A stretch of 35,888 nucleotides of DNA from a virus. The translations under genes were made by a program, and so were the position numbers. Of the stretch, positions 4,844 through 34,156 are shown piece by piece (the first letter of the stretch is position 1; every line of letters begins with the position of its first letter). The notes beneath the pieces are model-generated. The model was not told where the DNA came from and made no database searches. It was given only the letters and a program-made list of their open reading frames with translations. The DNA is taken from positions 1 through 35,888 of IMG/VR virus record IMGVR_UViG_3300044712_002228; one strand, given 5' to 3'.

Positions 4844-5727
4844 CGTCTTGGTATTGGATTGGGTGGTGGAGTTATCCATAGATAATTGCCAATGGCAATT
4901 AAGCTGGTAGTCCACTCTGAGCTGCCTTGTATTCTTGCCCGAATTCTGAATATAATTGCATCACCGGTCGGAGAATATATTCCATTAATGGTTACATAAG
5001 CAATTGCAAAATCGTCTATGTTACCTGAACTCTGCGATCCCGAACTCAAAACACTTAGATCCAAATTGTTAATAACCTGCCATTCTATTGTCTGGCTGCC
5101 TGAATAACCGGCATTAGAAACCCTAACACGGCACTCAACTGGCGTGCCCGGCCAGAATACGTCACTGCCCGGCAGAACAGCTGTTACGCTCAGGTTAACC
5201 GGCAGCACGTATGATACGGAGCTATATATCCAAGCGGCCTGAACCGGTCCTTTTAATCTTACTCTTAATTCCTTGTATGTTGCCGGAGCAGTAATGCCTG
5301 TAACCGTAACAGATCCTGATGAACGCCATTTAATGTTCCCTGTATTTACTGTTCCGCTATTAAGAATGTTATCCGACGAGTCAAGAATTTCCCAGGTAAG
5401 GGTATTGGATCCTTCTCCGCCGGTATTCAAAAAATCAACAGTGAAGCTCATTAGCGACGACGGTCTGTAATTCAACGACCCGAACGACGCTGAAATGACA
5501 TTAATTACACACGGTGTCCAGATCTCGATCACTCTGAACACCCTCTCATTAACCTGCGTCATCCCGAAGTTCCTGGGGTTCTGATGAGCTGCAGTAATTA
5601 ATCGCTGGCTCAAATATGCTAAACTGAAATCCCTCGGAAGTATCCTGTCTATTTCAAATATCCGTGGGCTTCCGCTCATAATCTCAAATTCTTTCTGGTT
5701 ACTATGTGTTGCAACGAACTGCAGCAT
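4840..5727 (-). CDS. Virion-associated protein with two Ig/CARDB-like repeats
   Basis: The 295-residue protein has two similar beta-rich units. One centres on VDFLNTGGEGSNTLTWEI and the other on VRVSNAGYSGSQTIEWQV; each is followed by a matching SSGS/NTG-GNI segment. This is the pattern of CARDB/Ig-like adhesion modules. It lies at the end of the tail fibre cluster, directly before the sigma factor, and is probably a distal tail or host-contact protein. The first 90 residues resemble no family I know. Confidence 0.6.
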   Translation of the reverse strand: MLQFVATHSNQKEFEIMSGSPRIFEIDRILPRDFSLAYLSQRLITAAHQNPRNFGMTQVNERVFRVIEIWTPCVINVISASFGSLNYRPSSLMSFTVDFLNTGGEGSNTLTWEILDSSDNILNSGTVNTGNIKWRSSGSVTVTGITAPATYKELRVRLKGPVQAAWIYSSVSYVLPVNLSVTAVLPGSDVFWPGTPVECRVRVSNAGYSGSQTIEWQVINNLDLSVLSSGSQSSGNIDDFAIAYVTINGIYSPTGDAIIFRIRARIQGSSEWTTSLIAIGNYLWITPPPNPIPRR

Positions 5728-6433: not shown

Positions 6434-7417
6434 TTAATAAGGTGATACATCGATGACGAAAGTATATCCGTAATTATCTACTGCATTATAACCATTAGGG
6501 TAAGCCGGATTGGTCGATGGATAATCATCAGCACCTCCATAGTATTGGTCATACATCGTTATGGTACTTCCAATCTGGGCACTGTCGGAGTTCCTTAGGA
6601 GTCTGCAAGTAATTAGCACATTACCTTGGTACGATGGATGACTGAAGCTAGTAAATCCTGCTCTTCCCTCTGAAGGCACGCAACCGGCACCAACTACAGT
6701 GAATCCGGAATCATTAACCATTACTGTCGTAGCAGCCATTTGATTAACTGTCACGGTAAAATCGCTGGTATTGGGAAGTCTGCATACTATCTGTGTGTCG
6801 TCAAATTCTGTGGTATCGCTGACCAGCCATACCTTGCCAGTATAAGTCCTGCCATCAACCCAGGTGCTGAGGGCAACGGATAACCCGGTTACGTCATTCT
6901 GAACAGATGAGCTTTCAAAATTTCGGGAAGCCCATCCCATTAAGCTCCCTCCATAATATATGGCCAGGGTTATGCCTACAATTCCACCAGCAATTTCCTG
7001 GTATCTTACCTCTCCAACATTTACATCAACGGTAATGTATGCAGTGCCTCCGGGAGTCACCCAAATGTTTCCGGAAGGAGCCGACCCTATCCATCCGGGA
7101 GTAACAGCATTATGATTATACCCGGCAAATTCATACAATCCCCTGGGAGCTTCTTCCGAATTAACAAGTGCCTGGCTCGATATGGTTCTCTTTGTTGGGC
7201 CAAACCCCGACCACTGATTCACATCAGCCGACTGATGTTGGCTCACAAAATCAAGGGCAGAGATCCCAAGGGCATTACGGATCTTAACGATGTCAATATT
7301 GGCACACTCAACAGTAGTTCCTACCACAGTCATATCTGCCTGGTTAGGCACACTTGCCCTGCTCTTTATGGCCGCAGCCGTAAACCCCCTGTATGCCGAT
7401 AATACTGCCTTTCCCAT
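6434..7417 (-). CDS. Tail fibre/appendage protein
   Basis: This 327-residue protein lacks catalytic motifs and is rich in Gly, Ser, Thr, Val and aromatic residues in alternating beta patterns, as in receptor-binding fibre proteins. Its start codon overlaps the stop of the preceding fibre gene (TGATG at 7419-7415), so the two are translationally coupled and may form one appendage. I do not recognise a named family. Confidence 0.6.
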   Translation of the reverse strand: MGKAVLSAYRGFTAAAIKSRASVPNQADMTVVGTTVECANIDIVKIRNALGISALDFVSQHQSADVNQWSGFGPTKRTISSQALVNSEEAPRGLYEFAGYNHNAVTPGWIGSAPSGNIWVTPGGTAYITVDVNVGEVRYQEIAGGIVGITLAIYYGGSLMGWASRNFESSSVQNDVTGLSVALSTWVDGRTYTGKVWLVSDTTEFDDTQIVCRLPNTSDFTVTVNQMAATTVMVNDSGFTVVGAGCVPSEGRAGFTSFSHPSYQGNVLITCRLLRNSDSAQIGSTITMYDQYYGGADDYPSTNPAYPNGYNAVDNYGYTFVIDVSPY

Positions 7418-8997
7418 CAGAATGTCACTCCTCCCTGAATATTATCTGCAGCCTGTATCACCCCTGCGCTTGTCAGCTTTGCAAGCGTCGTGCTGCCTCT
7501 TTTAATGATCAGATCATTACCGGATTCCTCGAAGCTCCAGTTTGCGGTTTTTAAAGCAACGCCTTTTATTCCGGTTGAATCCGCTTTAAAGCATTCGGTT
7601 GGTAGGGTAAGTGCACTCCCTTTCGATTTACCTGTCAGATCTGAGGCCGACCATAGATATAACGCCAGCTGGCTCCATCCTAATTGTAATGCAGATGCAC
7701 CAGAATCTATGTAGTCGCTACCAAGTTCTATTTGAGAAGCGGTCTGCCCGGCTCTTGTGTTTTGCCCCAACCAGGTATCGCAGTTAGAATAACGGTTACT
7801 AAAATGTGAGTAAGTTGCCATTTTCATCATCTTCCCGCTGTTCAATTCAAGAGCCTGCTCTGGTGTTGTAAGTCCTATTCCGACATTTCCCCCTGATGTA
7901 ATGACCATCCGATCTGCGCTACCTGTTCTGAACCATAATGTGCCACCACTTCCATATATTTGCGTGGCATTTGTTCCGCCCCACCATATGCCATTTCCGG
8001 CTGCAATGTTTACTACTCCGTTGACATCAAGTTTTGAACCTGATGCCGGACTGGTAGTGCCTATGCCTACTGCACCACCATTATCTATCGTCATACGATA
8101 AGCATCATTCGTAGGATCGTAGATATACATCTCATTTGCTCCCGAAGAGGTTCTTAGCTCAAATGGATGATTTCCTGTCGAAGATGCAAAACGAATATAA
8201 CCTGCTACGTCAAGTTTAGTCTGTGGACTTACTCCAATTCCGACATTACCACTAAAAACAGGACTATCAGTATTTGCAACTTTCTTCCAACCTGCAGTCG
8301 TACCGTTGTTTATTTGTCTAAACCATAGCTCAGGAGTAGCATACGATATAAATAATTGTCCTCCATAATCATCTCCGTAAGAACCAATTGAAATGTATGA
8401 TCCATAACCATCTGATCCTGGACAATTAGTATTAGTCCAACCAAAATTATTACTGATATAAGTACTCAGTGGAGTATTTAAATCGTACCAATAATTAACA
8501 CTAAGTCCTGTAGAACTGGTTAAATATCCAGCACTTGCGTGGTTACCCCAACCGTAAGCAGTATTCCAGTTAGCGGAATTATCAATTATCGAAGTCCCCC
8601 ACGCTGATCCTGTTGATAACGGGATCCCGGCACCCGGATATACCATCCCCGCGCCTCCCGTAACGGATAATACTCCATTGAATATCTGAAGCCCCGAACC
8701 TACTTTTACCCCTCCAACAACACTATCAGTTGCATATGGCATATCAGCCCATATTGTTCCGGGAAACTGACTGAAGTCCGAATATCCTTGAATGTTGTAA
8801 TCACTAGCAAAAGGAAGAAGACTTCTTATATATAAATTACCACCTCCGGCATCAACAATTTGAAGAAAATTGCCTAAGTCGGTCTGCCCCGATGCCATAC
8901 CGCTTTGTCCAATTGCTAACTGTCCTGTTTGAATAACTTGCCCGTCCCGTCGCTTGGCAAAGTAAGATCCTTCCGATATCGATACCGTTGCGCTCAT
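7417..8997 (-). CDS. Tail fibre with GxVGIG...LDVxG repeats
   Basis: The 526-residue protein has an N-terminal part that probably attaches to the tail tip. The central region repeats the motif NVGIG-x-P-x-LDVxG at about residues 250-270, 310-330 and 373-388, typical of trimeric beta-structured fibres and tail spikes. The C-terminal segment (SGNDLIIKRGSTTLAKL, then AADNIQGGVTF) is probably the tip. There is no chaperone-of-endosialidase domain. It starts in an ATGA overlap with the hub gene (8997-8994). It is the best candidate receptor-binding protein, and it carries no copy of the DGR repeat. Confidence 0.75.
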   Translation of the reverse strand: MSATVSISEGSYFAKRRDGQVIQTGQLAIGQSGMASGQTDLGNFLQIVDAGGGNLYIRSLLPFASDYNIQGYSDFSQFPGTIWADMPYATDSVVGGVKVGSGLQIFNGVLSVTGGAGMVYPGAGIPLSTGSAWGTSIIDNSANWNTAYGWGNHASAGYLTSSTGLSVNYWYDLNTPLSTYISNNFGWTNTNCPGSDGYGSYISIGSYGDDYGGQLFISYATPELWFRQINNGTTAGWKKVANTDSPVFSGNVGIGVSPQTKLDVAGYIRFASSTGNHPFELRTSSGANEMYIYDPTNDAYRMTIDNGGAVGIGTTSPASGSKLDVNGVVNIAAGNGIWWGGTNATQIYGSGGTLWFRTGSADRMVITSGGNVGIGLTTPEQALELNSGKMMKMATYSHFSNRYSNCDTWLGQNTRAGQTASQIELGSDYIDSGASALQLGWSQLALYLWSASDLTGKSKGSALTLPTECFKADSTGIKGVALKTANWSFEESGNDLIIKRGSTTLAKLTSAGVIQAADNIQGGVTF

Positions 8998-16394: not shown

Positions 16395-16895
16395 ATGGCA
16401 AAAGAAAAAGAGAAACGGACAGCTCGTATCCTGTACGTGGAACAGGGTAAAACAGCTAAAGACATCTCAGATCTTGTTGGTGTATCAGAAAAGACCATCT
16501 CCGACTGGGTTCAGAAGGGTGCCTGGAAAGAGGAGCGTACTGCTCGTAATTCATCCCCCGGCAAACGTGCCGATAATATCAAACTCATCATTACCAACCT
16601 CAGCGAAGACCGACTCGATCTTTCGCGTAAGGTCAAGGAAGCCGAAGCCAATCTTGCCGAAGCCGATGAGATACAGAAGCTCCGTGAGGAGATATCACGT
16701 ATCGATGATGCCGTAAGTAAGTGGAATAAAACACTTGAGAACATTGAAGATGAGAATCGCATCTCCCTTGCCACCTACCTTAATGTAATGGATCAGATCT
16801 TCAAGGCGATGCAGGCATACGATCCGAAACTATATATGGCAACTGTAGAGTTCCAGGATGCTCACATTCACAAGATCTGTACTTTGCTGGGATGA
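16395..16895 (+). CDS. Terminase small subunit-like DNA-binding protein (DUF1804 type)
   Basis: In this 166-residue protein an N-terminal helix-turn-helix (DISDLVGVSEKTISDWVQKG, about 23-42) recognises DNA. It is followed by a basic linker and a long helical region suited to oligomerisation (LREEISRIDDAVSKWNKTLENIED). This is the plan of Mu-type small terminase/DUF1804 proteins, which mark phage DNA for headful packaging. The stop overlaps the start of the large subunit (ATGA, 16892-16895). Confidence 0.8.
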   Translation: MAKEKEKRTARILYVEQGKTAKDISDLVGVSEKTISDWVQKGAWKEERTARNSSPGKRADNIKLIITNLSEDRLDLSRKVKEAEANLAEADEIQKLREEISRIDDAVSKWNKTLENIEDENRISLATYLNVMDQIFKAMQAYDPKLYMATVEFQDAHIHKICTLLG

Positions 16896-18409
16896 AAAGA
16901 GAAGAAAAAATACTGGCCGAACGTTACCTCGCCAACCTCCGAAAAATCAAAGAGGGTGCTGTGATCGATCCCTTCGAGGATGCAGGCCGGAAGCGCGAAC
17001 GCATTGCTCATCTCAAAAAGCATCCTGCCGAGTTTGCCGAATACTACTTCCCGCATTATTGCACATCCAGGCCAGCATATTTCCATAAGTCCCTGATGAA
17101 TTTGGTTCTGCGAACTCCGGTTTTCTTTATCCTCCTTCGTTGGGGTCGTGGTCTTGCAAAATCTGTTTATGCCAATATCATCATACCAATCCTTCTTTGG
17201 GCGAATGATGATGTTAAATATATGCTTCTCATTGGCCAGACCTTCGATAAGGCTAAAACACTTTTGGCCGATTTGCAGGCCGAATTCGAAGGAAATCCGA
17301 GGCTAATACACGACTTCGGTGCACAAAAGCTATCTGGCGACTGGTCTAAAGGCGATTTCCAGACTGCAAACGGCTTTTATGCAAAAGCATTTGGAATGGA
17401 GCAGAGCGCGCGAGGCATCCGGCGCGGTCCTCACCGCCCTGACTATATATCAGCCGACGATCTTGACGACGAGGAAATTACCAAAAATCCCAAAAGGCTC
17501 CGGGCCTACGCCAAGAAGATCGAGCAAAACATAATCCCAACTATGGATGGTCCTCGCCGCCGCTTCATTATGCCAAACAATTATTTCGCGCCCGTCACTA
17601 TTCAGGAGGTCCTTCGCGAACGTCATCCTAAATGGGATCTCATTCAGGTCGATGCATACGACTCAGCCACCTACGAACCGGCCTGGAAGGAGAAATACTT
17701 AGCTGCCTATTATAAAGAGGTAGAGGAAGCCATTGGTACTCTTGCAGCTCACGCCGAGTATAATAATCGTCCCCACATCGAGGGATCTATATTTACCGAA
17801 GATCAGATCCAGTGGGTACAACTCCCGGCAATCACACATTTCGAGCACCTGGTTGGTCATTGGGATATCGCTTACTCAGCATCAGCAACTGCCGACTATA
17901 ATGCTGTCAGGCTTTGGGGACTTAAAGAAAACAGGTTCTATCTCATCGACTGCTATGTCAAACAGTCCAAAATGAGAGCTGCTGTCGAATGGATCGCCGA
18001 TAAAATAAAAGAACTGCCCGGCAATGTTCGTGTTCGCTGGCAGTACGAGTCACAGTTCTGGAACGACGAAGTTCAAAGAACAATCGATGAAGTTGAAGAC
18101 AAATATCATATGGATCTGCGGCTGCGTAAAGTTGAACTGCCAAAGGAAAACAAGTACGACCGCATTGTCTCCACACAGCCTTATTATCAGAATGGCCGCA
18201 TCTTCTTCAACCAGAAGCTGAAGGGCCATAACGATACCCAAACCTCCATCGGTCAGCTTTGTGGCATCGAACCGGGCTACAAAACTAAGGACGATGCTCC
18301 CGATGCCGATGAACGTTGTCTCACCGAACTATCACACTTCATTCGTCGTGGTAAGTTCGGAGGATCCAGGTCAGGTAATTATTCACGAAACAATTCACGA
18401 AAAGGATGA
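16892..18409 (+). CDS. Terminase large subunit (packaging ATPase/nuclease)
   Basis: The 505-residue protein has a non-classical Walker A, WGRGLAKS, at about 84-91. The acidic Walker B region DYISADDLDDEE (about 184-195) provides the coupling acid. The C-terminal RNase H-like nuclease begins at HWDIAYSASATADYNA (about 328), whose first Asp would bind metal. It drives DNA into the prohead and cuts it, as Mu gp28 does. It is coupled by ATGA overlaps on both sides. Confidence 0.9.
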   Translation: MKREEKILAERYLANLRKIKEGAVIDPFEDAGRKRERIAHLKKHPAEFAEYYFPHYCTSRPAYFHKSLMNLVLRTPVFFILLRWGRGLAKSVYANIIIPILLWANDDVKYMLLIGQTFDKAKTLLADLQAEFEGNPRLIHDFGAQKLSGDWSKGDFQTANGFYAKAFGMEQSARGIRRGPHRPDYISADDLDDEEITKNPKRLRAYAKKIEQNIIPTMDGPRRRFIMPNNYFAPVTIQEVLRERHPKWDLIQVDAYDSATYEPAWKEKYLAAYYKEVEEAIGTLAAHAEYNNRPHIEGSIFTEDQIQWVQLPAITHFEHLVGHWDIAYSASATADYNAVRLWGLKENRFYLIDCYVKQSKMRAAVEWIADKIKELPGNVRVRWQYESQFWNDEVQRTIDEVEDKYHMDLRLRKVELPKENKYDRIVSTQPYYQNGRIFFNQKLKGHNDTQTSIGQLCGIEPGYKTKDDAPDADERCLTELSHFIRRGKFGGSRSGNYSRNNSRKG

Positions 18410-18840
18410 GCGCATTTTTAATAATGGACGATTTTCAGACACGCCTCAGTGATAGGATCATAGATATTCTCTCTGATGGTGATTTTTCCAAACTCGAAGC
18501 TGCCTCCAATGAGGCCAGTGGTATTATCCGCGACCGTCTTGTCGATAAATACCAGATCGATGCAGAACTTGCAAAGTCCGGTTCTTCACGTAACGCAATC
18601 CTGGTAAGATATGTCCTCTCACTGGCAATCTACTCGTTGTACTCCCGCATCCCCGACGAAGAGGTCCCTGAACGTGTAATTAAAGATTATGATGATGCAA
18701 TGAACGATCTTAAACTCATATCACAGGGAAAATTAAGCTGCAGCTTAACTATTAATACCGATTCCGAAGGAAACACGAAATCAAGGATTCGCATCGGATC
18801 CAATGATCCCAGATCCCACGATCCTTATAAGGTTTTATGA
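18406..18840 (+). CDS. DUF1320 head-tail connector protein (Mu gp36-like)
   Basis: The 144-residue, mostly helical protein has the DUF1320 features: a start MDDFQTRLSDRIIDIL, a central DRLVDKYQIDAEL and IYSLYSRIPDEEVPERVIKDYDDAM. In Mu-like phages gp36 belongs to the neck/connector set. The first in-frame ATG overlaps the terminase stop; a second Met (MDDFQT, 18424) may be the real start, since it matches the usual family beginning. Confidence 0.75.
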   Translation: MSAFLIMDDFQTRLSDRIIDILSDGDFSKLEAASNEASGIIRDRLVDKYQIDAELAKSGSSRNAILVRYVLSLAIYSLYSRIPDEEVPERVIKDYDDAMNDLKLISQGKLSCSLTINTDSEGNTKSRIRIGSNDPRSHDPYKVL

Positions 18841-18872
18841 TATGCTATTTAAACAATTATTAAATTCAATAT

Positions 18873-20075
18873 ATGAGCCGTATCCAAAAAGCACTCGACG
18901 CACTTAGAGGTAAGGTCCCGAATCCACCCGCCGGGAAAAAGAAAAGAATGACATCTCAGATTGACACGACTGCTCCCGACGATCGTGTTAAAATGGAAAT
19001 GGATTATCTGATAACTGCAATTGAAAATGCTTTATACCCGGGCCGGCCGGATCGGCGCAATCTGATCGTTATCTATTCAAACACCGAAGATGATGCTCAC
19101 GTAATGTCACAGGTGGAGATTGCCAAGAGCAAGCTTATTGCGGAACCGTTTACGATTACTCGTAACGGAACGGAGGATGCACAGTTAATGGAACGCTTCA
19201 AAGCTGCCTGGTTTGAGGACTGGCTCGAAATCATTATCGATTCAATGAATTGGGGCTATACACTGGTCGAGGCCGGACCAATAATTAACGACAACTGGAG
19301 TAGCTTCAATGTATTCCCGCGCAGGCACGTGGAACCATTCAAAAAACATATTCTTGTACGTCCCTCTGATGTCGAAGGAGTACCTTATGGAGACAATCCA
19401 TCCGCCCTTTACCTTCTCGAAATCGGTAATGCGAAGGATCTTGGTAAATTCAAAACCGTCGCCAGGGAAGTAATTTGGAAGAACTTCAGCCGTACTGACT
19501 GGAGCCAGGCTTCTGAGAAATTTGGAATGCCATTCCTGTACTACCAGACTGGCACCGAAGATGCCGACGAACTGGATAGAATTGAAGCACTCTGTCGTAA
19601 CTTTGCCTCTAATGGCTACGTTATTGGCCACATCGACGATAAAATTACGATAACCCAGGCAACCAACAGCGACTTCTATAAAATATACCAGGAAAACGCA
19701 ACTTTCTGCGACCAGCAGATATCTAAATGTATCAATGGCCAGACAGGTACCAGTGATGAGAAATCATTTGTCGGGGCCGCCGAAGTTCACGAACGCATAC
19801 TCGACGACTTTACAGAACGTCGCCTACGCAAAGCATCCAACTTAACCAATAATATCCTGATGCCCTTCCTTGCCTTCCACGGCTGGCCTGTCGAAGGGGC
19901 ACAGTTCCGTTTCCCGGCACTTGAGAAGAAGGCTTCTGATTCCTCCCTTCAGGATGATGATCCAGGCTCAGATCCGGATAACACTAACCCCGGACTTCAG
20001 TCCGGGGATTCTAAAAAAAAAGTCCAGTCCAAACTAAAGCTTCCCTCCTGGGTTATCGATACGCAGGCGGAATAA
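18873..20075 (+). CDS. Portal protein (DUF935, Mu gp29-like)
   Basis: The 400-residue protein matches the DUF935 portal family: an N-terminal stretch with MDYLITAIENALYPGRPDRR, a wing region with AKSKLIAEPFTITRNG, a core with DSMNWGYTLVEAGPI, and FGMPFLYYQTGTEDADELDRIEALCRNF. Portals form the dodecameric ring at the head vertex through which DNA is pumped. Its 3' end is odd: a palindromic repeat (19988-20007) of a type found between genes nearby is translated here as a Pro/Gly/Ser/Asp-rich linker, followed by a basic tail (KKKVQSKLKLPSW). Confidence 0.87.
   Translation: MSRIQKALDALRGKVPNPPAGKKKRMTSQIDTTAPDDRVKMEMDYLITAIENALYPGRPDRRNLIVIYSNTEDDAHVMSQVEIAKSKLIAEPFTITRNGTEDAQLMERFKAAWFEDWLEIIIDSMNWGYTLVEAGPIINDNWSSFNVFPRRHVEPFKKHILVRPSDVEGVPYGDNPSALYLLEIGNAKDLGKFKTVAREVIWKNFSRTDWSQASEKFGMPFLYYQTGTEDADELDRIEALCRNFASNGYVIGHIDDKITITQATNSDFYKIYQENATFCDQQISKCINGQTGTSDEKSFVGAAEVHERILDDFTERRLRKASNLTNNILMPFLAFHGWPVEGAQFRFPALEKKASDSSLQDDDPGSDPDNTNPGLQSGDSKKKVQSKLKLPSWVIDTQAE
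19986..20008. repeat. Palindromic repeat inside the portal gene
   Basis: CCCCGGAC (19988-19995), loop TTCA, GTCCGGGG (20000-20007). The same architecture with a compensating base pair (CCCCGGGC-TTCA-GCCCGGGG) occurs at 21413-21432, so the two copies conserve structure rather than exact sequence. Confidence 0.65.
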
Positions 20076-20100
20076 TCCTTCCTCTGTCAACTCTTTCTTT

Positions 20101-20125
20101 AACCCCCCCTTGGGGGGGCAGGGGA
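20101..20125. repeat. C7-TT-G7 palindrome before the head morphogenesis gene
   Basis: Seven C (20103-20109), TT and seven G (20112-20118), then CAGGGGA and the GTG start at 20126. It is flanked by TTAA and resembles short palindromic elements common between genes in Bacteroidota chromosomes. It lies exactly where the ribosome binding site should be, so it could also reduce translation of the next gene. Confidence 0.5.
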
Positions 20126-20893
20126 GTGAATCTCCTGGCTGAAGTCTCCATCTCCTCAACCATAATATCAAAATTTCTCAAAGCCATTTATGACCAGCAA
20201 GTCACCGATGGCCAGCCCGATCCGGATCTCTTCAACCGTACCTGGAAGAAACTCTTCCGCTCCTTCGAAGCCGGTTATGGCAAATCCCTGGGTAAGATCA
20301 AATACAACTCACCCGATTATGCCTTTCTCGAGGAGATTAAATACAACACAGCCGTCTTTTCAGCATTCAAACAGAATGCACAGATAAAAGATGCTGCTAA
20401 GCTCCTGGTTAAGGACGATGGTTCTGCCCGTACCTGGAAGGAGTTTCTTGATGCTGCAATGGAGGTCGACGACACGTACAATAAACGCTGGCTTCAGACC
20501 GAGTTCAACCAGGCGCATTCTTCAGCTCTCCAGGCACGCCGGTATAAAGATGCCGTCAAAACAGCTTCATTATATCCCAACCTCGAATATATCTCCGTTC
20601 GCGATGGCCGTACGCGAGAGTCGCATAAAAAGCTGCACGGTACTGTCCGTCCTATTGGAGATCTCTTCTGGGGTCAGTTTATGCCGCCGATCGATTGGGG
20701 TTGCCGCTGTACAATCAGGCCAACGGATAAGCCCGTAACTGCTGTTCCTGCAGAAGTACCTGAGGTTCCTGAGGGAATGGATGTCAATACGGCTGTCGAA
20801 GGCAAGATCTTCTCCGACAACCATCCATATATCAAAGGATCTGCTGACAAGAAAGATGAACTAATCAAATTTGTAAACAACCAGCTGCTGTGA
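20126..20893 (+). CDS. Head morphogenesis protein (Mu gpF-like, SPP1 gp7 family)
   Basis: The 255-residue protein starts at GTG 20126. The C-terminal half carries the Mu F/SPP1 gp7 signature: EFNQAHSSALQARRYKD, then RDGRTRESHKKLHGTVRPIGD, and a Cys-containing end PPIDWGCRCTIRP. The family forms a minor head component needed for prohead assembly or DNA delivery. It overlaps the next gene by 4 bases (GTGA at 20890-20893), so the two are coupled. Confidence 0.88.
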   Translation: MNLLAEVSISSTIISKFLKAIYDQQVTDGQPDPDLFNRTWKKLFRSFEAGYGKSLGKIKYNSPDYAFLEEIKYNTAVFSAFKQNAQIKDAAKLLVKDDGSARTWKEFLDAAMEVDDTYNKRWLQTEFNQAHSSALQARRYKDAVKTASLYPNLEYISVRDGRTRESHKKLHGTVRPIGDLFWGQFMPPIDWGCRCTIRPTDKPVTAVPAEVPEVPEGMDVNTAVEGKIFSDNHPYIKGSADKKDELIKFVNNQLL

Positions 20894-21408
20894 AGAAACT
20901 CTCTCAACTCGGTTCCGATCTCCAGCACTTTGGCGATGCCTTCAAACAAAAGCTTGCTGAAATCCTTCCACCCATAATCGGAGTCGAAGGACAAAAGCAC
21001 TTCGAAGAAAGCTTCGATAACCAGGGTTTCACCGATAAGAATCTTACCAAGTGGAAGAAACGCAAATTTAGCGGCCGTAAAACACGTCAGGATGGAGGCC
21101 GTACCAAAGCCTACGCCGACTTTGTTCGTAAAGATATGAACCGGGGCATTCTCGTTGGCCAGCAAACAGACACTAAAGGTATCCATCTCAAGGACTCGAT
21201 CCGCAACAGCCATACCGATAAAGCTGTAACCTTCGAAACAGACAAACCTTACGCACAGGTTCACAACGAAGGCGGTCACGCGGGCAGGGGCAAAGGCTTC
21301 GAAATGCCCCAGCGTCAGTTTATGGGAGCATCCGAAGAACTCGATGATAAGATCGAAGCAAAGCTCTCTTCCGAAATGGATAAATGGTTCAGCAACCTGA
21401 AGATATAA
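20890..21408 (+). CDS. Virion morphogenesis/tail completion protein (Mu gpG-like)
   Basis: The 172-residue protein starts at GTG in the GTGA overlap with the F-like gene. It shows the phage virion morphogenesis pattern: basic WKKRKFSGRKTRQDGG in the middle, then YAQVHNEGGHAGRGKGFEMPQRQFMG, the HNEGG...PQRQFMG signature of the family. Proteins of this type complete the neck or tail so that heads and tails can join. The gene order portal, F, G is the same as in Mu. Confidence 0.85.
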   Translation: MKKLSQLGSDLQHFGDAFKQKLAEILPPIIGVEGQKHFEESFDNQGFTDKNLTKWKKRKFSGRKTRQDGGRTKAYADFVRKDMNRGILVGQQTDTKGIHLKDSIRNSHTDKAVTFETDKPYAQVHNEGGHAGRGKGFEMPQRQFMGASEELDDKIEAKLSSEMDKWFSNLKI

Positions 21409-23278: not shown

Positions 23279-23572
23279 TTATGTGAATAAGTATCTGTCG
23301 TCTTTACAAATTATTGTGCTCTCAAATGGAAATGCATCATCCGGTACCTGCCTGATCCCCTCAATGAGTCCGTTGGATCCTGTAAACAGAACGTGCATCT
23401 CATCCTTAATTGAAATCTGCACCTGCAGGCATTTGCCTTTAAAGTGTTTTGAATCGCTAATTACATAGTGATGCACCACTATTTCACGGTTAAGAATCTT
23501 CTGTATCTTAATCTTATCACCAAGAAAACCCTTGTGAGAGATCTTGATCTCAAGCTGGCTGAACTTTTTCAT
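23279..23572 (-). CDS. Small protein overlapping RT; candidate DGR accessory
   Basis: This 97-residue protein starts 23 bases inside the end of the reverse transcriptase gene, so the two must be translated from one mRNA. It is mostly beta-type: KFSQLEIKIS, GDKIKIQKILNREIVVHHYVI, KGKCLQVQISI, HVLFTGSNGLIEGI and a basic, aromatic end. The alternation and the FTGSNGLIE turn fit a compact nucleic-acid-binding fold (OB-like), but this is a visual guess. It does not look like Avd, the four-helix accessory protein of classic DGRs. Tight linkage to RT makes it a candidate cofactor. Confidence 0.6.
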   Translation of the reverse strand: MKKFSQLEIKISHKGFLGDKIKIQKILNREIVVHHYVISDSKHFKGKCLQVQISIKDEMHVLFTGSNGLIEGIRQVPDDAFPFESTIICKDDRYLFT

Positions 23573-24518
23573 TGAGTATCTTTTTAAGTAAGTGTTTACT
23601 ATTGCAGTGTTTTGCCCATCCGGAATATGATGAAATGGATTGCTTATTATTGTGTCTGGCTACCGCTCTGGCAAAGTTCTGTTTGATCGTTTTCCGCAGG
23701 CGCGTGTGAGTATGGTAGAATACATACCCTACAAAATCAATCCCCCGGTCCTTCACCGGAAATACCTGGTAATTGTCTTTTATCTGCAGCTTCAGTTTTT
23801 CTTCCAGGTAAGTCCTGATTTGCGACAGTAATTGGTGTAGATAAGGCTTGTCTGATGACAGTATTACTATATCATCGGCGTAACGGAAGTAATACTTTAC
23901 TTTCAGATCTTCCTTCAGCCAATGATCAAAATATGTCAGGTAAAAATTAGCCAGGTACTGGCTCAGGTAGTTCCCGATCGGGAGGCCGTCGGCACTGTCA
24001 ATTATGCCATCGAGCAGCCAGAGCAGATCCTGATCCTTAATCTTCTTCCTGAGCAGCTGCTTCAGGATCCCGTGGTCAACATTCGGATAGAACTTGCGTA
24101 TGTCGAGTTTAAGGCAGTACCGGGTATTTGCCTTATCTATGAGTGTCTCCCGGAGCGATCTCGCTGCAGCGTGGATCCCACGCCCCTTTATGCAGCTGTA
24201 AGTGTCGGCTGTAAACATTGCCACGAAAATTGGCTCCAGAACGTTCATCACAGCGTGGTGGACTATCCGGTCCGGATAATATGGGAGCCTGTAAATTATG
24301 CGCTCTTTTGGCTCGTATATGGGGAATGTGGTATATTCTGAAGTAACGTAGGTCTTATTGATCAGTGCCTCCCGGAGAGCTGCAATGTTCTGCTCCCGGT
24401 TCCTGTCGTGAGCAACTATGCCAGACTGTTTCATCTTGCCCCTTCTGGCAATCGAATCTGCCAGATTGAGATTCTCTATGCTGCAGATCTGTTGATATAA
24501 GTTCCCTTTTCTTTTCAT
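23550..24518 (-). CDS. Diversity-generating retroelement reverse transcriptase
   Basis: The 322-residue RT has all its motifs: YRLPYYPDRIVHHAV at 76-90, catalytic LDIRKFYPNVDHG at 138-150 (Asp139), GLPIGNYLSQ at 178-187, FRYADDIVIL at 211-220 (Asp215/Asp216) and GIDFVGY at 259-265. The IGNYLSQ box matches the [LIV]GxxxSQ form that distinguishes DGR RTs from group II and retron enzymes. There is no maturase or endonuclease domain, and the length is typical of DGR RTs. It copies the adjacent template RNA with errors at adenines. The TR ends about 100 bases upstream of its start, in the same direction. Confidence 0.93.
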   Translation of the reverse strand: MKRKGNLYQQICSIENLNLADSIARRGKMKQSGIVAHDRNREQNIAALREALINKTYVTSEYTTFPIYEPKERIIYRLPYYPDRIVHHAVMNVLEPIFVAMFTADTYSCIKGRGIHAAARSLRETLIDKANTRYCLKLDIRKFYPNVDHGILKQLLRKKIKDQDLLWLLDGIIDSADGLPIGNYLSQYLANFYLTYFDHWLKEDLKVKYYFRYADDIVILSSDKPYLHQLLSQIRTYLEEKLKLQIKDNYQVFPVKDRGIDFVGYVFYHTHTRLRKTIKQNFARAVARHNNKQSISSYSGWAKHCNSKHLLKKILNEKVQPA

Positions 24519-24528
24519 TGCCTTTGCT

Positions 24529-24732
24529 TTATGAGATCCCGTTCACCTGGGCTACCAGGGCTCTCTTTAGGTATTTGTTATTTTTTGCCTTGTTGGCAAG
24601 GTCTATGTTGCGGTAATTACATAGGTGAGAACCGACGTTCGTATTCGAGTTATCGTAGTCGTAATTCGAATCGTCGAACCTGAAACCGGACGACAGAACT
24701 GACAGCTCCTGCAACATACAACCCCGGATCAT
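24529..24732 (-). CDS. Short ORF spanning the template repeat (coding status doubtful)
   Basis: A 67-codon frame starts in a TAATG overlap with the stop of the second target gene and runs through the TR in the same frame as the target proteins (LSSGFRFDD ... VGSHLC). It then ends in a basic stretch (NNKYLKRALVAQVNG) 10 bases before the RT gene. It may simply reflect that the TR arose from a target gene copy; most TRs are not translated. If it is translated, the RT would be reached by coupled translation. Confidence 0.3.
   Translation of the reverse strand: MIRGCMLQELSVLSSGFRFDDSNYDYDNSNTNVGSHLCNYRNIDLANKAKNNKYLKRALVAQVNGIS
24620..24696 (-). repeat. DGR template repeat (TR), 77 bp
   Basis: On the coding strand it matches VR1 (24814-24890) and VR2 (25226-25302) without gaps. 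The TR has 18 adenines on this strand. VR1 differs at 9 of them plus one T, and VR2 differs at 12 and nowhere else. Adenine-rich codons such as AAT, AAC, GAC and TAC occur at the variable positions, the usual TR design. The 3' end (reading GTCGGTTCTC) is invariant and would be the initiation site. TR and RT lie in the same orientation. Confidence 0.93.
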
Positions 24733-25139
24733 TATTCTGAATAAAGAAGATACTCCTGGTATAACTCCTCAAACTGCTTGGCTATGTACAATGCCTTCTC
24801 CTTCGAATCGGTGCAAAGGCGAGAACCGACGCTCGCACTCGAGTAATCGTAGCCGTAATTCGAACCGTCGACCCCGAAACCGGACGACAGAACCCAGAAA
24901 CACGGGTAATATTTCCACTGATTAATATTGCTCCAGTCAGGCTTCCAGGCATTATTAATGGCAAGAAAAATAATGACTAGCTTGTAATAAGCAATCATTG
25001 GTTTAATTGCTTCAATGTGTACAGCCTTTATTTCAGGCACAACAGGATCAATGCCAATTCTTTTACAGGCATCTTCAAAGGTTTTGATCGATTCATAATC
25101 AAACTCTTCAGTCTTTTGTTTAGCGATCTTTTCGGTCAT
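24732..25139 (-). CDS. DGR target protein 2
   Basis: The 135-residue protein is paralogous to the product at 25144-25602. Shared parts are IKTFEDAC and IDP near the start; AIN-x2-W-x-PDW-x-N-x-NQ, a KYYP/KWYP element and LSSGFG before the variable region; VGSRLC at its end; then a helical tail with KQF-x2-LY. The variable segment is about residues 84-109. The VGSRLC end recalls the VGFR-type end of C-type lectin fold DGR targets, so a ligand-binding surface is likely, but the rest of such a domain is short or absent. No signal peptide or membrane segment is present. Confidence 0.85.
   Translation of the reverse strand: MTEKIAKQKTEEFDYESIKTFEDACKRIGIDPVVPEIKAVHIEAIKPMIAYYKLVIIFLAINNAWKPDWSNINQWKYYPCFWVLSSGFGVDGSNYGYDYSSASVGSRLCTDSKEKALYIAKQFEELYQEYLLYSE
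24814..24890 (-). repeat. Variable repeat VR1
   Basis: Aligned without gaps to the TR, it has ten substitutions. Nine are at TR adenines (coding strand) and one is T to G (TTC to GTC, Phe to Val). Residue changes relative to the TR frame are mostly Asn, Asp, Arg or Thr to Gly, Tyr, Ser or Ala. Both flanks share bases with VR2. Confidence 0.92.
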
Positions 25140-25143
25140 AATG

Positions 25144-25602
25144 TTACTTTTTTATGGTTAGGAACTCTTCATATAGACTCAGAAACTGCTTCCCTGCATA
25201 ACTTGATTTTTCTTCCGATTCAAAGCAAAGGCGAGAACCGACGCGCGCATCCGAGAAATCGCAGTCGTAATCCGAATCGCCGAACCCGAAACCGGACGAC
25301 AGTTTAAACCAGGGATACCATTTACGCTGGTTCGTATTATCCCAGTCCGGCTCCCATCCCTGGTTAATGGCCTTAACAATGATCTTTAGTCTCTTGTAAG
25401 CTATCTCATCTAGGGTATCGACGTCGCAACAAACAGCATCCGGATCTATGTCCAGTGCCTCACAGGCGTCCTCGAAGGTTTTTATGTCCTTATACGTAAT
25501 TGTTCTGAAGCTGTCTTTCCCGAAAGCTGCTTCAAATTTTGTCTTCATCTCGGCTGATGCAGTCGGATAAAGATTCTTGGCTTCTTTTAATGTTAATTCC
25601 AT
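25144..25602 (-). CDS. DGR target protein 1
   Basis: This 152-residue protein is the first gene of the DGR block. Its N-terminal 30 residues (ELTLKEAKNLYPTASAEMK) are absent from its paralogue. It continues with IKTFEDACEALDIDPDA, AINQGWEPDWDNTNQRKWYPWF, the variable part (about residues 101-126) and the tail EEKSSYAGKQFLSLYEEFL. The variable part sits before a conserved C-terminal helix rather than at the very end. The gene lies four bases upstream of the second target gene. Its ligand and location are unknown; lack of a signal suggests a cytoplasmic protein or one packaged with the virion. Confidence 0.87.
   Translation of the reverse strand: MELTLKEAKNLYPTASAEMKTKFEAAFGKDSFRTITYKDIKTFEDACEALDIDPDAVCCDVDTLDEIAYKRLKIIVKAINQGWEPDWDNTNQRKWYPWFKLSSGFGFGDSDYDCDFSDARVGSRLCFESEEKSSYAGKQFLSLYEEFLTIKK
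25226..25302 (-). repeat. Variable repeat VR2
   Basis: It aligns without gaps to the 77-bp TR. All 12 substitutions fall on TR adenines of the coding strand (mostly A to G, some A to T and A to C); all non-adenine positions are identical. It produces changes such as Asn to Asp, Phe or Arg and Tyr to Cys relative to the TR frame. Confidence 0.94.
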
Positions 25603-27395: not shown

Positions 27396-27552
27396 TTAAA
27401 TACTCTTTTAATGGTATTAATCTTCGGGCTGGTAATTGGCTTATATGAACAATTATGCCGCTTTCATCAATTGCACAGGCTTCCCCGGTCCTTATTACCA
27501 GTCCGGTTGCCTTACACCTCACCTTATGATTTGCTATTGCTGCCTGATACAT
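27301..27552 (-). CDS. Possible overlapping small ORF
   Basis: An 83-codon frame (MYQAAIANHKVRCKATGLV) fills the gap between the glucosaminidase (19-base overlap) and the next small gene, then overlaps the latter by 95 bases in another frame. Without it about 138 bases would be empty, so the N-terminal part is probably coding. The Arg/Lys/Ser-rich C-terminal half looks less natural. Confidence 0.4.
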   Translation of the reverse strand: MYQAAIANHKVRCKATGLVIRTGEACAIDESGIIVHISQLPARRLIPLKEYLNGQHKPVQGNKSRIQDNPERRSAKTTHYSTR

Positions 27553-28010
27553 ACCTGAAGCTTATTCAAATAGTTAGGATCCTCGGCATAGCCAATCAAT
27601 GCCAGGAATGAAAAATAGTCTGTGAGATCTCTGCCTCGTTCCTTGTACCATTCCTGAAATAGCGATACGTCTTTTACGGAATCAAACCAGCTGTTGTATG
27701 CTGCATAGTTATTTGGAGTTGCTCCAAGGGCAGTTGTTTCCCTTCTCCGGGCCTGTCGCATCCCGAACAGGTTATTATGGGTCCTGCACAATTCGCTGGT
27801 AAAATTGCCCGTTTCCAGCCGTGCCTGGGCAAAAACAACGTCTGCCGACATAACACCGGCAATCTCCAGGGCTGCCTTCAGATGCTCCGGGGTCAGTTCC
27901 GCTCCCTGCAGCCATTGTTCAGTCTTCTCCTGGGTGTCACATCCCGATCCGGGTGCGTATCCCTGGAGCGTAACAAGTAGGATCAATGCTAATAATATCA
28001 TTTTCTTCAT
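27534..28010 (-). CDS. Exported glucosaminidase-like peptidoglycan hydrolase
   Basis: The 158-residue protein has a signal peptide (MKKMILLALILLVTLQGYA). The rest matches the GH73/FlgJ-type N-acetylglucosaminidase fold: VFAQARLETGNF with the probable catalytic Glu, then THNNLFGMR, TALGATPNNYAAYNSWFDSVKDV and a helical end. The family cuts glycan strands of peptidoglycan. It is in the early/middle operon, far from the late lysis cluster, directly after a small membrane protein and joined to it by an ATGA junction. Confidence 0.8.
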   Translation of the reverse strand: MKKMILLALILLVTLQGYAPGSGCDTQEKTEQWLQGAELTPEHLKAALEIAGVMSADVVFAQARLETGNFTSELCRTHNNLFGMRQARRRETTALGATPNNYAAYNSWFDSVKDVSLFQEWYKERGRDLTDYFSFLALIGYAEDPNYLNKLQVCIRQQ

Positions 28011-30658: not shown

Positions 30659-31280
30659 TAGTATTAAAACCCCAATATTTAATAGATCCTTCCGGGTATA
30701 TGTCATAGTATTTCTCCTTGCTTCCGCCATAACGGCTCTGGCAGAATGCCCTGAAACCTTCAACCCTTATCTTCACATTTGCATCGTACCTTATTGCGTT
30801 GGCTGTCCTGCCATCCGGATACTTGCCTGCAGCGTGCGATGTGAAAATGAATAACTTTTGAGGATGCCTGTTAATGAGATCCTTGGCAGTGAGCTTGTTT
30901 AACCCGGAGTACTGAACCGAATCAATTATGACGATCCGGGGGCTCTTATGCCTGGAGAGTCTTTCCTCCAGGTCCCCGATCGGCTCCTTGTCCAGGATTA
31001 TGAATCTGCCCTGTGTTTCAACCATATTCTCTCTTTTTATTGCATCCCGGAGGCTTTTGGAGATTCCCTCCTCAAGCGAGTTAAATGCTACTCTTTCCCA
31101 TTGGCAGAGGTATTTTGCGAGCTGGAGGACGAAAGCGGTCTTCCCGTTCGCGCTTTCGCCCCATACTATCCAACATCCCTTAACTTCAGGACTCCCTATC
31201 AGCTCCTGCCATATGCCGTCAAATGGCAGTTCAATAAACCTCGAATTAAGTACCTGAAGTGATGTTGCAGCTCGCCTCAC
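30645..31280 (-). CDS. RecA/DnaB-like P-loop ATPase
   Basis: The 211-residue protein has Walker A GESANGKT at 41-48 and Walker B RIVIIDS at 115-121. Between them FNSLEEG and related elements match the RecA-fold core. Its size is that of small RAD55/RecA-like phage ATPases used in replication or recombination. It follows MuB directly, so it may help replicative transposition by remodelling DNA or loading host proteins. Its start overlaps the stop of the MuB-type gene by one base. Confidence 0.75.
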   Translation of the reverse strand: MRRAATSLQVLNSRFIELPFDGIWQELIGSPEVKGCWIVWGESANGKTAFVLQLAKYLCQWERVAFNSLEEGISKSLRDAIKRENMVETQGRFIILDKEPIGDLEERLSRHKSPRIVIIDSVQYSGLNKLTAKDLINRHPQKLFIFTSHAAGKYPDGRTANAIRYDANVKIRVEGFRAFCQSRYGGSKEKYYDIYPEGSIKYWGFNTNDND

Positions 31281-32152
31281 TATGCCCTCCTCTGCTTGTT
31301 AACTTCTATTTGAATTCTTCTCAAACTGATTTCTATCGACTTAGGGATCGCATTCAGGAGTTCCTCGGATGCACCGTTTGCCTTGGCGATAAGTACGGCC
31401 TGCATAACGTGGAATTCCTTTGCTGCTTCTTTCCCCTCCGGAGTGATCCTCTGGTATCTGCTGCCATACCTCGAGAACAACTCTGGGTATCCTACCTTCG
31501 ACTTGGCCCTGTTAGCCTCAAATTTCTTTCTGAGGCCATCAGCACCCATCATATACCATCCGCACGATCCTTCAGTGGCATTCCACAGAGCCTTCAACTC
31601 CAGGGTGGCTTCGTAACTGAGATCTCCTGCTTCATCAAGTATGATCAGAGGTCTTTCCAGGCTTCTCAGGTAGTACACCAGGTCCTGGTATATCTCCCTC
31701 AGTAATCCCGAGGCGGTTATCCCAAACTCCTTGGCAATTTGTATTAGGAGCATTCTCTTCGTCTTAGCCTGGCTGCAGTCAATGTAAACTGCATTCTTGT
31801 GCTCACGCACGTAGCATTTGGCTGAGTAAGTTTTGCCAAGGTCAGTCTTGTCGCAAAGCATTCCGCCCATTGAGTTCTGCTGGCAAAGTTCCAGCTGGCC
31901 GGTTACATAACTATACACAGGTGTCTTGGCTGTAACCCAGGGAGTGCTCTGCCCGATCGGCACCTCTAGCTTCCTGGCAATTGTAATCAGAGCAGCGTCA
32001 GATATCACTCCGTCAAACTCGCCTTTAATTATTCTCGAAAACTGCGCTGGCGATGTTCCCAGTGCAACCGCCATCTTTGAATCAGATGGATACTTTGAAC
32101 GCTGCTGTTTAATCGCGTCCAGGATTCTTTGTTTAAACTCTATTGTAGCCAT
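31280..32152 (-). CDS. MuB-type transposition target activator ATPase
   Basis: In this 290-residue protein an N-terminal HTH (KMAVALGTSPAQFSRIIKGE, about 26-45) precedes an AAA+ core with CDKTDLGKTY at 100-109 as P-loop and LIILDEAGDL at 169-178 as Walker B. The first Gly of the classical P-loop is replaced, which I believe is common in Bacteroidota MuB relatives. MuB binds target DNA, delivers it to the transposase and protects phage DNA from self-integration. It lies 24 bases downstream of the transposase gene. Confidence 0.87.
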   Translation of the reverse strand: MATIEFKQRILDAIKQQRSKYPSDSKMAVALGTSPAQFSRIIKGEFDGVISDAALITIARKLEVPIGQSTPWVTAKTPVYSYVTGQLELCQQNSMGGMLCDKTDLGKTYSAKCYVREHKNAVYIDCSQAKTKRMLLIQIAKEFGITASGLLREIYQDLVYYLRSLERPLIILDEAGDLSYEATLELKALWNATEGSCGWYMMGADGLRKKFEANRAKSKVGYPELFSRYGSRYQRITPEGKEAAKEFHVMQAVLIAKANGASEELLNAIPKSIEISLRRIQIEVNKQRRA

Positions 32153-32176: not shown

Positions 32177-34156
32177 TTAAATTGCATTTTTGCCGAGTTG
32201 CGACCAGTAGTCGGCATCGGCATTTATGTTGTTAATATTGAAATATTGTTCTGTGGAATCTGCATCCGGAGTCACGTCAAGGATCTCCGGGGTCACGTCG
32301 CTGAAGTCAGGCATATTCCTGATCACTTCAACCCTTGGCAGCTCGGCTGCTCTTTCATTAATGCGCTTGCGTGCGTGTGCCTGGCGTTTGGCCTGCTCTA
32401 TACGGATCTCTTCATCGAGTTCAGTTCTTTCAGCCTTAGCCTCGTTGTATGTTTCAATCTGATCTGCCTTACACAGGTATTTGTCGCCCTGGTATAAATA
32501 CACTGAAGGAATGTTACCAGAAGGATCCTCGATCCAGTAAGCTTCCACGTCGTATCTGTTTGGAGCAAGTAATCCTAGCACGTGATCCGTGTCTATTGCA
32601 TAAGCTTTGTACTGAACGGTCACGAAGTCATAATTCCTTACCGATGTCTCTGTCCGGTTTCCCAGATACCTTAATATTATATGCATCGCTGGTGATCCAA
32701 GATCCGGATTAGCCATTTCCTTCAATACCTGCAACCTGGTTTTACCTGGATAATCAGGATGCTCCTGGTTATGCTGAAACCTGATCGAGTAGATATCATC
32801 TGCCACAAGATCCTCGTACTCATAAATCCGGTTCTCGTCCTGGTTTATCTGGTAAGCATCGTGCTTATTCGACCAACGGCCTATGTTGTCCTGAAGGAGC
32901 TTCTCTGCTCCGTATTTCTTGGCTCTTATTCCGTGCTCTGCCCTCTTCTCCCGTGAGTTCTGAGGATTACACCAGCGCACGTGCGCGAACATAGTCTGCA
33001 GCGGATCCTTCAACTGAGTCATAAGGTGTCTTTCAACCTCTGCTTCACCTGGCCAGGGTAATGATTCCTCCAGACAGAATGAAAGCATCGATCTGAAGCA
33101 GTCAATTATAAGCGCGGTATCCTTAGTCCTGGAGTGAGCCCAGCCGATTATGCAGCCAGAAAGTGGCTCATAAGCATAGTAACATTTAACCTCAAAGCCG
33201 TTGGCTGTCCTGCGTGGCAGATCCCGGTCGTCAAATGACACCTTCGAGAGGCTGAATTCTGGCTTATGTCTGTGGTTATAAGGCAGCGATTTAGTACGAA
33301 AATCGATCCCACTTGTCCTGAATTTGTTTATTACCTGCCTGTTTACGGGTTTCGATAAGTAAGACCAGGTTGTGCTCTCACTTATATATAATGGTTGTCC
33401 GTTCTGGTCGTGGAAGTCTGCCCTGTCAAACAACTCACCGCTTTTCAAATCAACCACCTCCAGCGATCCTGCCAGGAATTGAAGGTAAAGCTCACGCACG
33501 GTGCTTGCAAAATGTCTGTTCTTTGTGGTATATAGAGCAAGGAAGAGATCCTCCATTTTTTTGCTCACTTTACGAGCGCGCTGGTTGCCATAATGTCTGT
33601 TCACCAGGCATACATAACCTCTCTGCAGGTATTCCTTATGCTTATCCCTGAGTCGGCGGCTGTTTTCTGGGAGCGAGTGGCACCATAAAGATCTGTCTAT
33701 TCCAATAACATCCCTGGTAACGTTCTCCCAAACATCTTGCATCTTAACGGAATTGCCCATTGCCCGGCGCATATTAATCATCGCCTGGGTAAGTTTTCCG
33801 ATAGCATTAAGCACTGCTGCATTGGCACAGTACTCCCTTATCGCTTCCAGGGGAAGATTCCGGCCATCTGCAAGTTCGTACTCGGCAAAGTACTTGTATG
33901 CCTTGGGGTCTGCTTCAATTATGTCAGTAATGCCCTGGTCTTTCTTCGGACTTGGATTACCATACTTTGCTTCAAGTATGGCTCTGCGCTTTGGCAATAT
34001 GGAGTTCCATTCAATCTGAACCGGCTGGCCCTTGCAGGCTCTGGTTGTTTTTAGAAAATAACGTCTTCTGTCATTTTCAAATTGGCTGTAAGTCAACCCT
34101 GAGCTTATCCACTCATCTAGGGTTATTACAGTTGTGTTTTCTATTATTTGCGGCAT
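32177..34156 (-). CDS. Mu-type DDE transposase (MuA-like)
   Basis: The 659-residue transposase is the size of MuA. The N-terminal part begins with a winged-helix-like domain (WISSGLTYSQFENDRRRYF). The integrase core lies at about 290-440: first catalytic Asp in KVSFDDRDLP (309/310), a second acid in GEAEVERHLM (371-375, where most DDE enzymes have Asp) and the last Glu in NSREKRAEHGIRAKKY (403 or 407). A basic C-terminal segment (KRQAHARKRINERAAELPRVEV) would contact MuB. It joins phage ends to target DNA for integration and replication. Confidence 0.92.
   Translation of the reverse strand: MPQIIENTTVITLDEWISSGLTYSQFENDRRRYFLKTTRACKGQPVQIEWNSILPKRRAILEAKYGNPSPKKDQGITDIIEADPKAYKYFAEYELADGRNLPLEAIREYCANAAVLNAIGKLTQAMINMRRAMGNSVKMQDVWENVTRDVIGIDRSLWCHSLPENSRRLRDKHKEYLQRGYVCLVNRHYGNQRARKVSKKMEDLFLALYTTKNRHFASTVRELYLQFLAGSLEVVDLKSGELFDRADFHDQNGQPLYISESTTWSYLSKPVNRQVINKFRTSGIDFRTKSLPYNHRHKPEFSLSKVSFDDRDLPRRTANGFEVKCYYAYEPLSGCIIGWAHSRTKDTALIIDCFRSMLSFCLEESLPWPGEAEVERHLMTQLKDPLQTMFAHVRWCNPQNSREKRAEHGIRAKKYGAEKLLQDNIGRWSNKHDAYQINQDENRIYEYEDLVADDIYSIRFQHNQEHPDYPGKTRLQVLKEMANPDLGSPAMHIILRYLGNRTETSVRNYDFVTVQYKAYAIDTDHVLGLLAPNRYDVEAYWIEDPSGNIPSVYLYQGDKYLCKADQIETYNEAKAERTELDEEIRIEQAKRQAHARKRINERAAELPRVEVIRNMPDFSDVTPEILDVTPDADSTEQYFNINNINADADYWSQLGKNAI

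Follow-up and report, generated by a model that had tools for sequence, protein, structure and literature searches.

A diversity-generating retroelement aimed at two small early proteins of a Mu-like Bacteroidota phage

Diversity-generating retroelements (DGRs) of phages are understood mainly as tail-switching devices. In a global survey of DGR targets, viral clades are mostly tail proteins, accompanied by many unannotated clusters (PMC8144416), and the DGRs of Bacteroidota phages are likewise described as tail-targeting in a 2025 study (PMC12629997), according to which a second, distal variable repeat (VR) lies near counter-defence genes in four species of gut prophage. That a DGR can be aimed at a non-structural phage protein is already known from Quimbyvirus, which is reported to diversify, besides a structural protein, a non-structural one encoded in a defence island (PMC8008677); LoVEphage and Quimbyvirus align to one B. 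dorei prophage (CP011531.1; PMC8525569, PMC8008677). Here we analyse a DGR lying at 23279-25602 of IMG/VR virus record IMGVR_UViG_3300044712_002228, of which positions 1-35,888, the whole stretch of DNA under study, are referred to as the window. The only detectable targets of this element are two small proteins encoded early in a Mu-like phage, and phages thus appear to use directed hypermutation for a purpose other than attachment to the cell.

The cassette is encoded on the minus strand in the order target A, target B, template repeat (TR), reverse transcriptase (RT) and a 97-aa open reading frame (ORF). Re-deriving the repeats from the sequence returned one TR of 77 bp and two VRs of the same length in paralogous genes upstream of it, the VRs being exactly where an earlier interpretation made from the letters of the window (the sequence-only reading) had placed them. 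Target A (152 aa, 25144..25602) and target B (135 aa, 24732..25139) are both members of phrog_11581 (profile matches 1e-32 and 8e-30, respectively), the former being distinguished by an N-terminal helical extension; VR2 (25226..25302) lies inside target A and VR1 (24814..24890) inside target B. The TR (24620..24696) contains 18 adenines. A single DGR-type RT is present (322 aa, 23550..24518; phrog_1423, 2e-127; PF00078, 4e-19), and the IGNYLSQ box noted earlier was found as LPIGNYLSQ, in agreement with the [LIV]GxxxSQ box of the DGR group, together with a YADD motif. The start of the 97-aa ORF (23279..23572; phrog_19665, 6e-10) overlaps the end of the RT. Differences between TR and VRs fall on template adenines in 9/10 cases for VR1 and 12/12 for VR2, that is, 21/22 in all, where adenines make up 18/77 of TR bases (binomial P for at least 21/22 of 9e-13), and a stop codon can be reached by changes at 0/18 of these adenines. 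The count given by the sequence-only reading therefore stands, but not all of it can be taken as fresh hypermutation: about six adenine positions are changed identically in VR1 and VR2, several of which lie at the ends and are A-to-G or A-to-T changes, and these look like fixed positions of a homing boundary of the initiation of mutagenic homing (IMH) type. Between TR and RT lies a spacer (24519..24619; median 102 nt in relatives, with TR-to-RT spacing of 89-224 nt across 123 loci) that presumably belongs to the template RNA, a role inferred from BPP-1. A 67-aa ORF running across the TR (24529..24732) has a weak target-profile score and is open in a minority of loci, and it is probably no gene but template RNA that arose from a copy of a target.

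Close relatives of the window phage differ from each other almost exclusively in their VRs. A set of contigs (L020-L027) represents one phage sampled in different metagenomes. For two of them, L022 and L023, a comparison over 2759 bp shows 25 differing sites, of which 24 are inside VRs (P ~1e-24), and the share of differences found in VRs is 11/12 for L022 and L024 and 23/25 for L022 and L027. The TR is identical across the compared contigs of this set, and their VR differences fall at TR adenines in 13/13, 9/11 and 12/12 cases across three VRs. The prophages of two Elizabethkingia species, with 96% identity over 2.4 kb and identical TRs, differ at 10 and 13 VR positions, all 23 of them adenines. 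Divergence confined to VRs under a constant TR is the pattern expected of retrohoming. The sequence-only reading had proposed active retrohoming and had set beforehand, as patterns that would argue against it, identical VRs despite divergent flanks or VR differences spread over non-adenine positions; the relatives show the opposite. Judged by these relatives, the DGR lineage of the window is active in nature, and adenine-mutagenic retrohoming has support as strong as comparative sequence allows.

The second main observation is the location of the targets. The early end of the window encodes homologues of MuA (32177..34156, minus strand; phrog_310, 2e-34) and MuB (31280..32152, minus strand; phrog_296, 3.5e-34), an ATPase, a ParB-like protein and a repressor-like gene, and then comes the DGR. 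Terminase, portal and head genes form a plus-strand block at 16395-21408, and the protease, major head, major tail, tape measure and tail-fibre-like genes a minus-strand block. The targets are therefore at the end of the early operon, behind the transposition genes and apart from the virion modules, as had been anticipated from the sequence alone. The two Mu-type profiles together with terminase, portal, head protease and major tail protein identify a Mu-like transposable phage. When the TR was compared with the whole window on both strands, only the two VRs were matched, with nothing outside 24620-25302 and no tail gene; the tail-fibre-like gene (7417..8997, minus strand; phrog_9942, 5e-7) has no VR. 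Likewise, the TRs of seven long relative contigs, compared with the whole of each contig, matched only themselves and two small targets. Neither the window nor any of these seven relatives thus conceals a VR in a tail gene, and the eight differ in this from tail-targeting DGRs of the BPP-1 type, in which a tail or receptor-binding protein is diversified. The arrangement extends to phages of other kinds. In L081, a 42.7-kb contig of a non-Mu phage, a replication initiator and exonuclease VIII flank the cassette, which is away from the portal, terminase, tape measure and tail-fibre genes; the integrase-bearing contig of L038 also has its tape measure and tail fibres away from the cassette. Elsewhere in the window we noted an RNA polymerase sigma-factor-like gene downstream of the tail genes (4283-4915, minus strand; phrog_1740, 2e-24) and, in the early operon, a glucosaminidase-domain protein with a hydrophobic N-terminus (27534-28010, minus strand; PF01832, 5e-18).

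By sequence comparison, the cassette is not peculiar to the Mu-like phage of the window and recurs in most of the loci analysed. An RT search of viral contigs gave 80 loci, and a search with an RT alignment, at one genome per species, gave another 80, nearly all from Bacteroidota with a few Ignavibacteria metagenome-assembled genomes (MAGs); isolate carriers include Flavobacterium, Pedobacter, Dyadobacter, Niastella, Muricauda, Chryseobacterium, Myroides and Elizabethkingia. In the joint set of 157 loci, some of which end at contig ends, the target family is found in 134 (318 copies in total) and the 97-aa protein directly follows the RT in 117. An adenine-aware scan, which tolerates mismatches at adenines and caps all others, places the TR ~100 nt upstream of the RT, and the usual spacing of VRs is ~560-630 nt and ~195 nt upstream of the TR, in most loci with enough flank. 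Over 246 VRs, from 108 loci with at least two VRs and further loci with a single one, 3640 mismatches are at TR adenines and 71 elsewhere, a ratio that is an upper estimate because the scan favours adenine mismatches by construction; the count in the window and the pairwise comparisons of relatives are independent of this bias. In the Mu-like subset, MuA and MuB lie 7.6 and 5.6 kb ahead of the cassette on the same strand, with head genes convergent downstream; the number of Mu-like relatives in which MuA, MuB and a repressor precede it ranges over 9-32 with the gene counted. Arrays of three targets occur in L022, L085 and L125, and scattered extra copies in L035, L090/L105 and L150. In the prophage of Dyadobacter sp. 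Leaf189 (L090/L105), a single TR is surrounded by three VRs spread across 13 kb, and ~48 kb off, on the opposite strand, lies a fourth copy of the family; the contig of L060 carries, besides a separate two-target DGR cassette, a 326-aa frame consisting of two tandem target-family domains (G039:C1:55488-56273).

The fixed changes seen at the VR ends of the window have a counterpart in these relatives. In the last 20 nt, 329 A-to-G/T positions are fixed and 137 variable, compared with 403 fixed and 1059 variable elsewhere, and there are fixed positions at the 5' end too. At both TR ends, in nearly all loci, adenines give way to one and the same base in each VR (CAG to CGG, CAC to CGC, CTA to CTT), and such uniformity suggests that the transferred tract is defined, its borders being fixed on either side.

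A second architecture, in which one TR serves an RT-adjacent tail protein and a remote small member of the early family, was found in the gut Bacteroides phages Versailles, BT-TP2 and LoVEphage and in prophages L171-L173. In the Bacteroides phage Versailles the RT adjoins a tail protein whose VR matches the TR over 115 nt with 12 mismatches at adenines and one other; the same TR matches, ~43 kb away, an early gene of the small family that is flanked by NinB-like and replication genes; over 107 nt this match has 14 mismatches, none of them outside adenines. Matches to the early family member are also adenine-only in BT-TP2 (118 nt, 13 mismatches) and LoVEphage (113 nt, 19 mismatches), and consist of 17 adenine and one other mismatch in L171 and of 12 and 15 adenine mismatches with no others in L172 and L173, the early gene being 35-42 kb from the RT, on a contig of equal length, in these three prophages. 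L155 is a weaker case (12 adenine mismatches and four others). Paired small genes of the target family, ~1.5 kb apart, in L136, L160 and L161 (G001, G005, G006) showed no match to the tail TR of their own genome and no adjoining TR. The second target of LoVEphage belongs to the target family of the window (A2 profile, E 2e-15), and it is very likely the gene described in Quimbyvirus, because both phages align to the same B. dorei prophage. In LoVEphage (MW660583.1, ~47.9-49.0 kb, L202-L204) RT similarity runs across three frames with one TAG, its TR/VR differences being adenine-only notwithstanding, and split RT reading frames have been reported for Quimbyvirus too (PMC8008677). Two crAss-like RT relatives, cr115_1 and cr60_1, were rejected as carriers of early targets, their RTs adjoining tail, lysis or virion genes. 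An RT tree sets the early-type cassettes apart from most gut tail-type RTs (91/83); since Versailles, BT-TP2 and BPP-1 are long branches, we make no firm claim on the origins of these enzymes. The phylum-wide cassette, its conserved OB-like partner (the 97-aa ORF, discussed below) and this remote second target of gut phages go beyond the sequence-only reading, although the ORF lies within the interval that it had outlined.

What the target proteins do can be approached through their sequence and predicted structure. The VR lies ~25-30 residues ahead of the C-terminus and is closed by a VGSRLC motif, of which G, R and L, with a preceding lysine, are invariant in an alignment of target B, and column entropy within the VR is highest at alternating template-adenine codons. 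An AlphaFold model of target A, obtained with 49 sequences (predicted local distance difference test, pLDDT, 85), gives a confident helical N-terminal part and a C-terminal helix, with a low-confidence VR loop. Structure prediction had been suggested by the sequence-only reading, but the model brought no fold match in the PDB. On the question of a C-type lectin, the VR segment is homologous to that of tail targets, and the model has no lectin fold, with the VR loop at low confidence. Significant Foldseek/BFVD matches of target A are essentially uncharacterised phage and crAss-like proteins, and the family may be among the unannotated clusters of the global survey (PMC8144416). Hydropathy analysis of ~90 family members detected no signal peptide or transmembrane stretch, and the two targets of the window have no hydrophobic N-terminus, as had been noted for them earlier. 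Across 20 isolate genomes the family lies, with few exceptions, in or near a DGR cassette, and therefore it appears to be tied to diversification in these hosts.

On balance, we favour a model in which this DGR of a Mu-like phage varies paired early proteins that act inside the cell, where they would bind a changing host or rival factor. TR RNA would be reverse-transcribed with errors at adenines, and the resulting cDNA would replace the VRs of the two tandem paralogous genes of the early operon. The small proteins would be intracellular binders, composed of a helical N-terminal part and one hypervariable loop closed by VGSRLC, and each phage lineage would keep a varied pair recognising a host or rival-phage factor that itself changes, for example a defence protein. 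Intracellular action is suggested by the early-operon location, the lack of export signals and the absence from tail modules. Binding of a variable host or rival factor, which would follow from the logic of DGRs and from the methyltransferase and repair genes that are neighbours in some phages, is the least supported step. Several points weigh against this model. There are virion proteins of phages whose genes lie outside the structural operon. The TR of gut phages serves a tail protein too, and having a TR in common, the tail and early proteins could share a use in the virion. Foldseek and profile searches of target A against the PDB gave nothing significant, nor did a Pfam search of the targets, and the OB assignment of the 97-aa protein consists of a predicted topology and weak matches.

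Among the alternatives, the one that survives best is that the small proteins are minor components of the virion, placed at the tail tip or ejected with the DNA, and encoded early, in which case the element would still be a DGR for host recognition. Phage DGR targets are mostly tail proteins in the global survey (PMC8144416), one TR serves both kinds of target in gut phages, the small proteins show homology, in their VR segment, to the VR end of tail targets, and the family member of Versailles is annotated as 'tail protein'. However, this likeness is limited to the VR segment, the only part that small and tail targets have in common (hhalign probability 94.6, E 7e-8, 29 columns), and the annotation is an HHpred match that a shared VR would explain. 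Gut phages, moreover, already possess a separate tail target, and in unrelated phages the small genes share their location with genes for transposition, recombination and replication. We regard a virion role as unlikely. A slightly less probable explanation is that, after entry, the proteins adapt the phage to variable housekeeping partners of the host, such as polymerase, replication or lysogeny factors, and have no part in defence. The early-operon location and the breadth of hosts, from Bacteroidota to a few Ignavibacteria MAGs, would suit such a function, yet these partners vary little within a host species and the VRs differ between almost identical phages. Action at the cell surface (superinfection exclusion) is improbable: cellular DGR targets are typically membrane-anchored surface proteins, according to the same survey (PMC8144416), but the small proteins would have to reach the surface by non-classical export, given the hydropathy results. 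Finally, a repeat array that has decayed or arose by chance and undergoes no retrohoming, for which there is the ordinary paralogy of the two targets and nothing more, has a negligible probability, chance or paralogy alone being ruled out by the 21/22 adenine differences of the window (P ~1e-12), the ratio of 3640 to 71, the VR-only divergence of close relatives and the phylum-wide conservation. A role of the small proteins in intracellular conflict appears the most likely.

A homologue of the 97-aa protein lies just downstream of the RT in 75/77 viral loci, and all 20 isolate genomes searched have one, at one copy per RT cassette. Its AlphaFold model (pLDDT 92) has a b-b-b-a-b-b topology, and several weak Foldseek matches, none of them significant, are OB folds; a Pfam search gave nothing significant. 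The archaeal virus vir525 (L225, BK063673.1, a virus of Methanosarcinales) has a tail target, an RT (phrog_1423) and an OB-like protein in that order, so that the last of these accompanies the RT lineage into a virus of archaea. Occurrence as one copy per RT cassette, and behind a tail target in vir525, argues for a role in the RT reaction and not in the function of the targets. The accessory protein Avd is not universal among DGRs, and its domain (PF05635) was not detected among the 10 cassette-region proteins scanned. The 97-aa protein could be a nucleic-acid-binding accessory of this RT lineage that takes the place of Avd, and it offers a candidate DGR accessory outside the Avd family.

The cassette, which has an RT lineage, an OB-like accessory and a tandem pair of its own, might be seen as a dedicated hypermutation machine of Bacteroidota phages, and it is tentatively possible, at somewhat less than even chances, that it serves counter-immunity against the defences of hosts or rivals and has no role in adsorption. 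The question of what non-tail DGR targets do, so far tied to a single family of phages, comes in this way to concern a protein family that is spread through a phylum. Since cassette and family are available as prophages in culturable strains of Flavobacterium, Pedobacter, Dyadobacter and Bacteroides, removal of the genes is feasible.

In the literature searched we found no earlier description of cassettes devoted solely to a tandem early pair without a tail VR. As far as that literature goes, the spread across Bacteroidota, the placing of these targets and the second target of gut phages in one family, and the RT-linked OB-like protein are also new; the 97-aa accessory as such is not claimed to be, given that a DGR-linked protein without a Pfam entry was suggested earlier, as cited in PMC10053308. 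Compared with the mtd/avd/TR/brt system of BPP-1, the window shares the target-TR-RT order, the adenine-specific mutation and candidate IMH-type differences at the ends. BPP-1 has a tail-fibre target whose VR is C-terminal, and its accessory gene separates target from TR, whereas in the window the targets are early, the VR lies ~25-30 residues before the C-terminus, no Avd was found and an OB-like protein follows the RT. Hankyphage (PMC6199706), a Mu-like phage of Bacteroides, is like the phage of the window a transposable Bacteroidota phage with a DGR, but it is known for a tail-directed one, and it is not among the nine records of annotated phages with target homologues in the matches listed. 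One TR with more than one target, one of them remote, is found, as in the second architecture, in the gut prophages with a distal second VR (PMC12629997) and in the Bacuni phages (PMC8143477); both targets of the latter are of the fimbrial-tip/DUF1566 adhesion type (PMC8143477), unlike those of the window, and the accessible text of PMC12629997 neither names the target family nor describes cassettes without a tail target. The closest likeness in kind of target is to Quimbyvirus and LoVEphage, which have a non-structural distal second target, in their case among methyltransferase and repair genes. These phages have the RT beside a tail target, a single early protein ~14 kb from the RT, and a split RT; the window, in place of a tail target, has a tandem pair next to the TR, served by an RT in a single frame.

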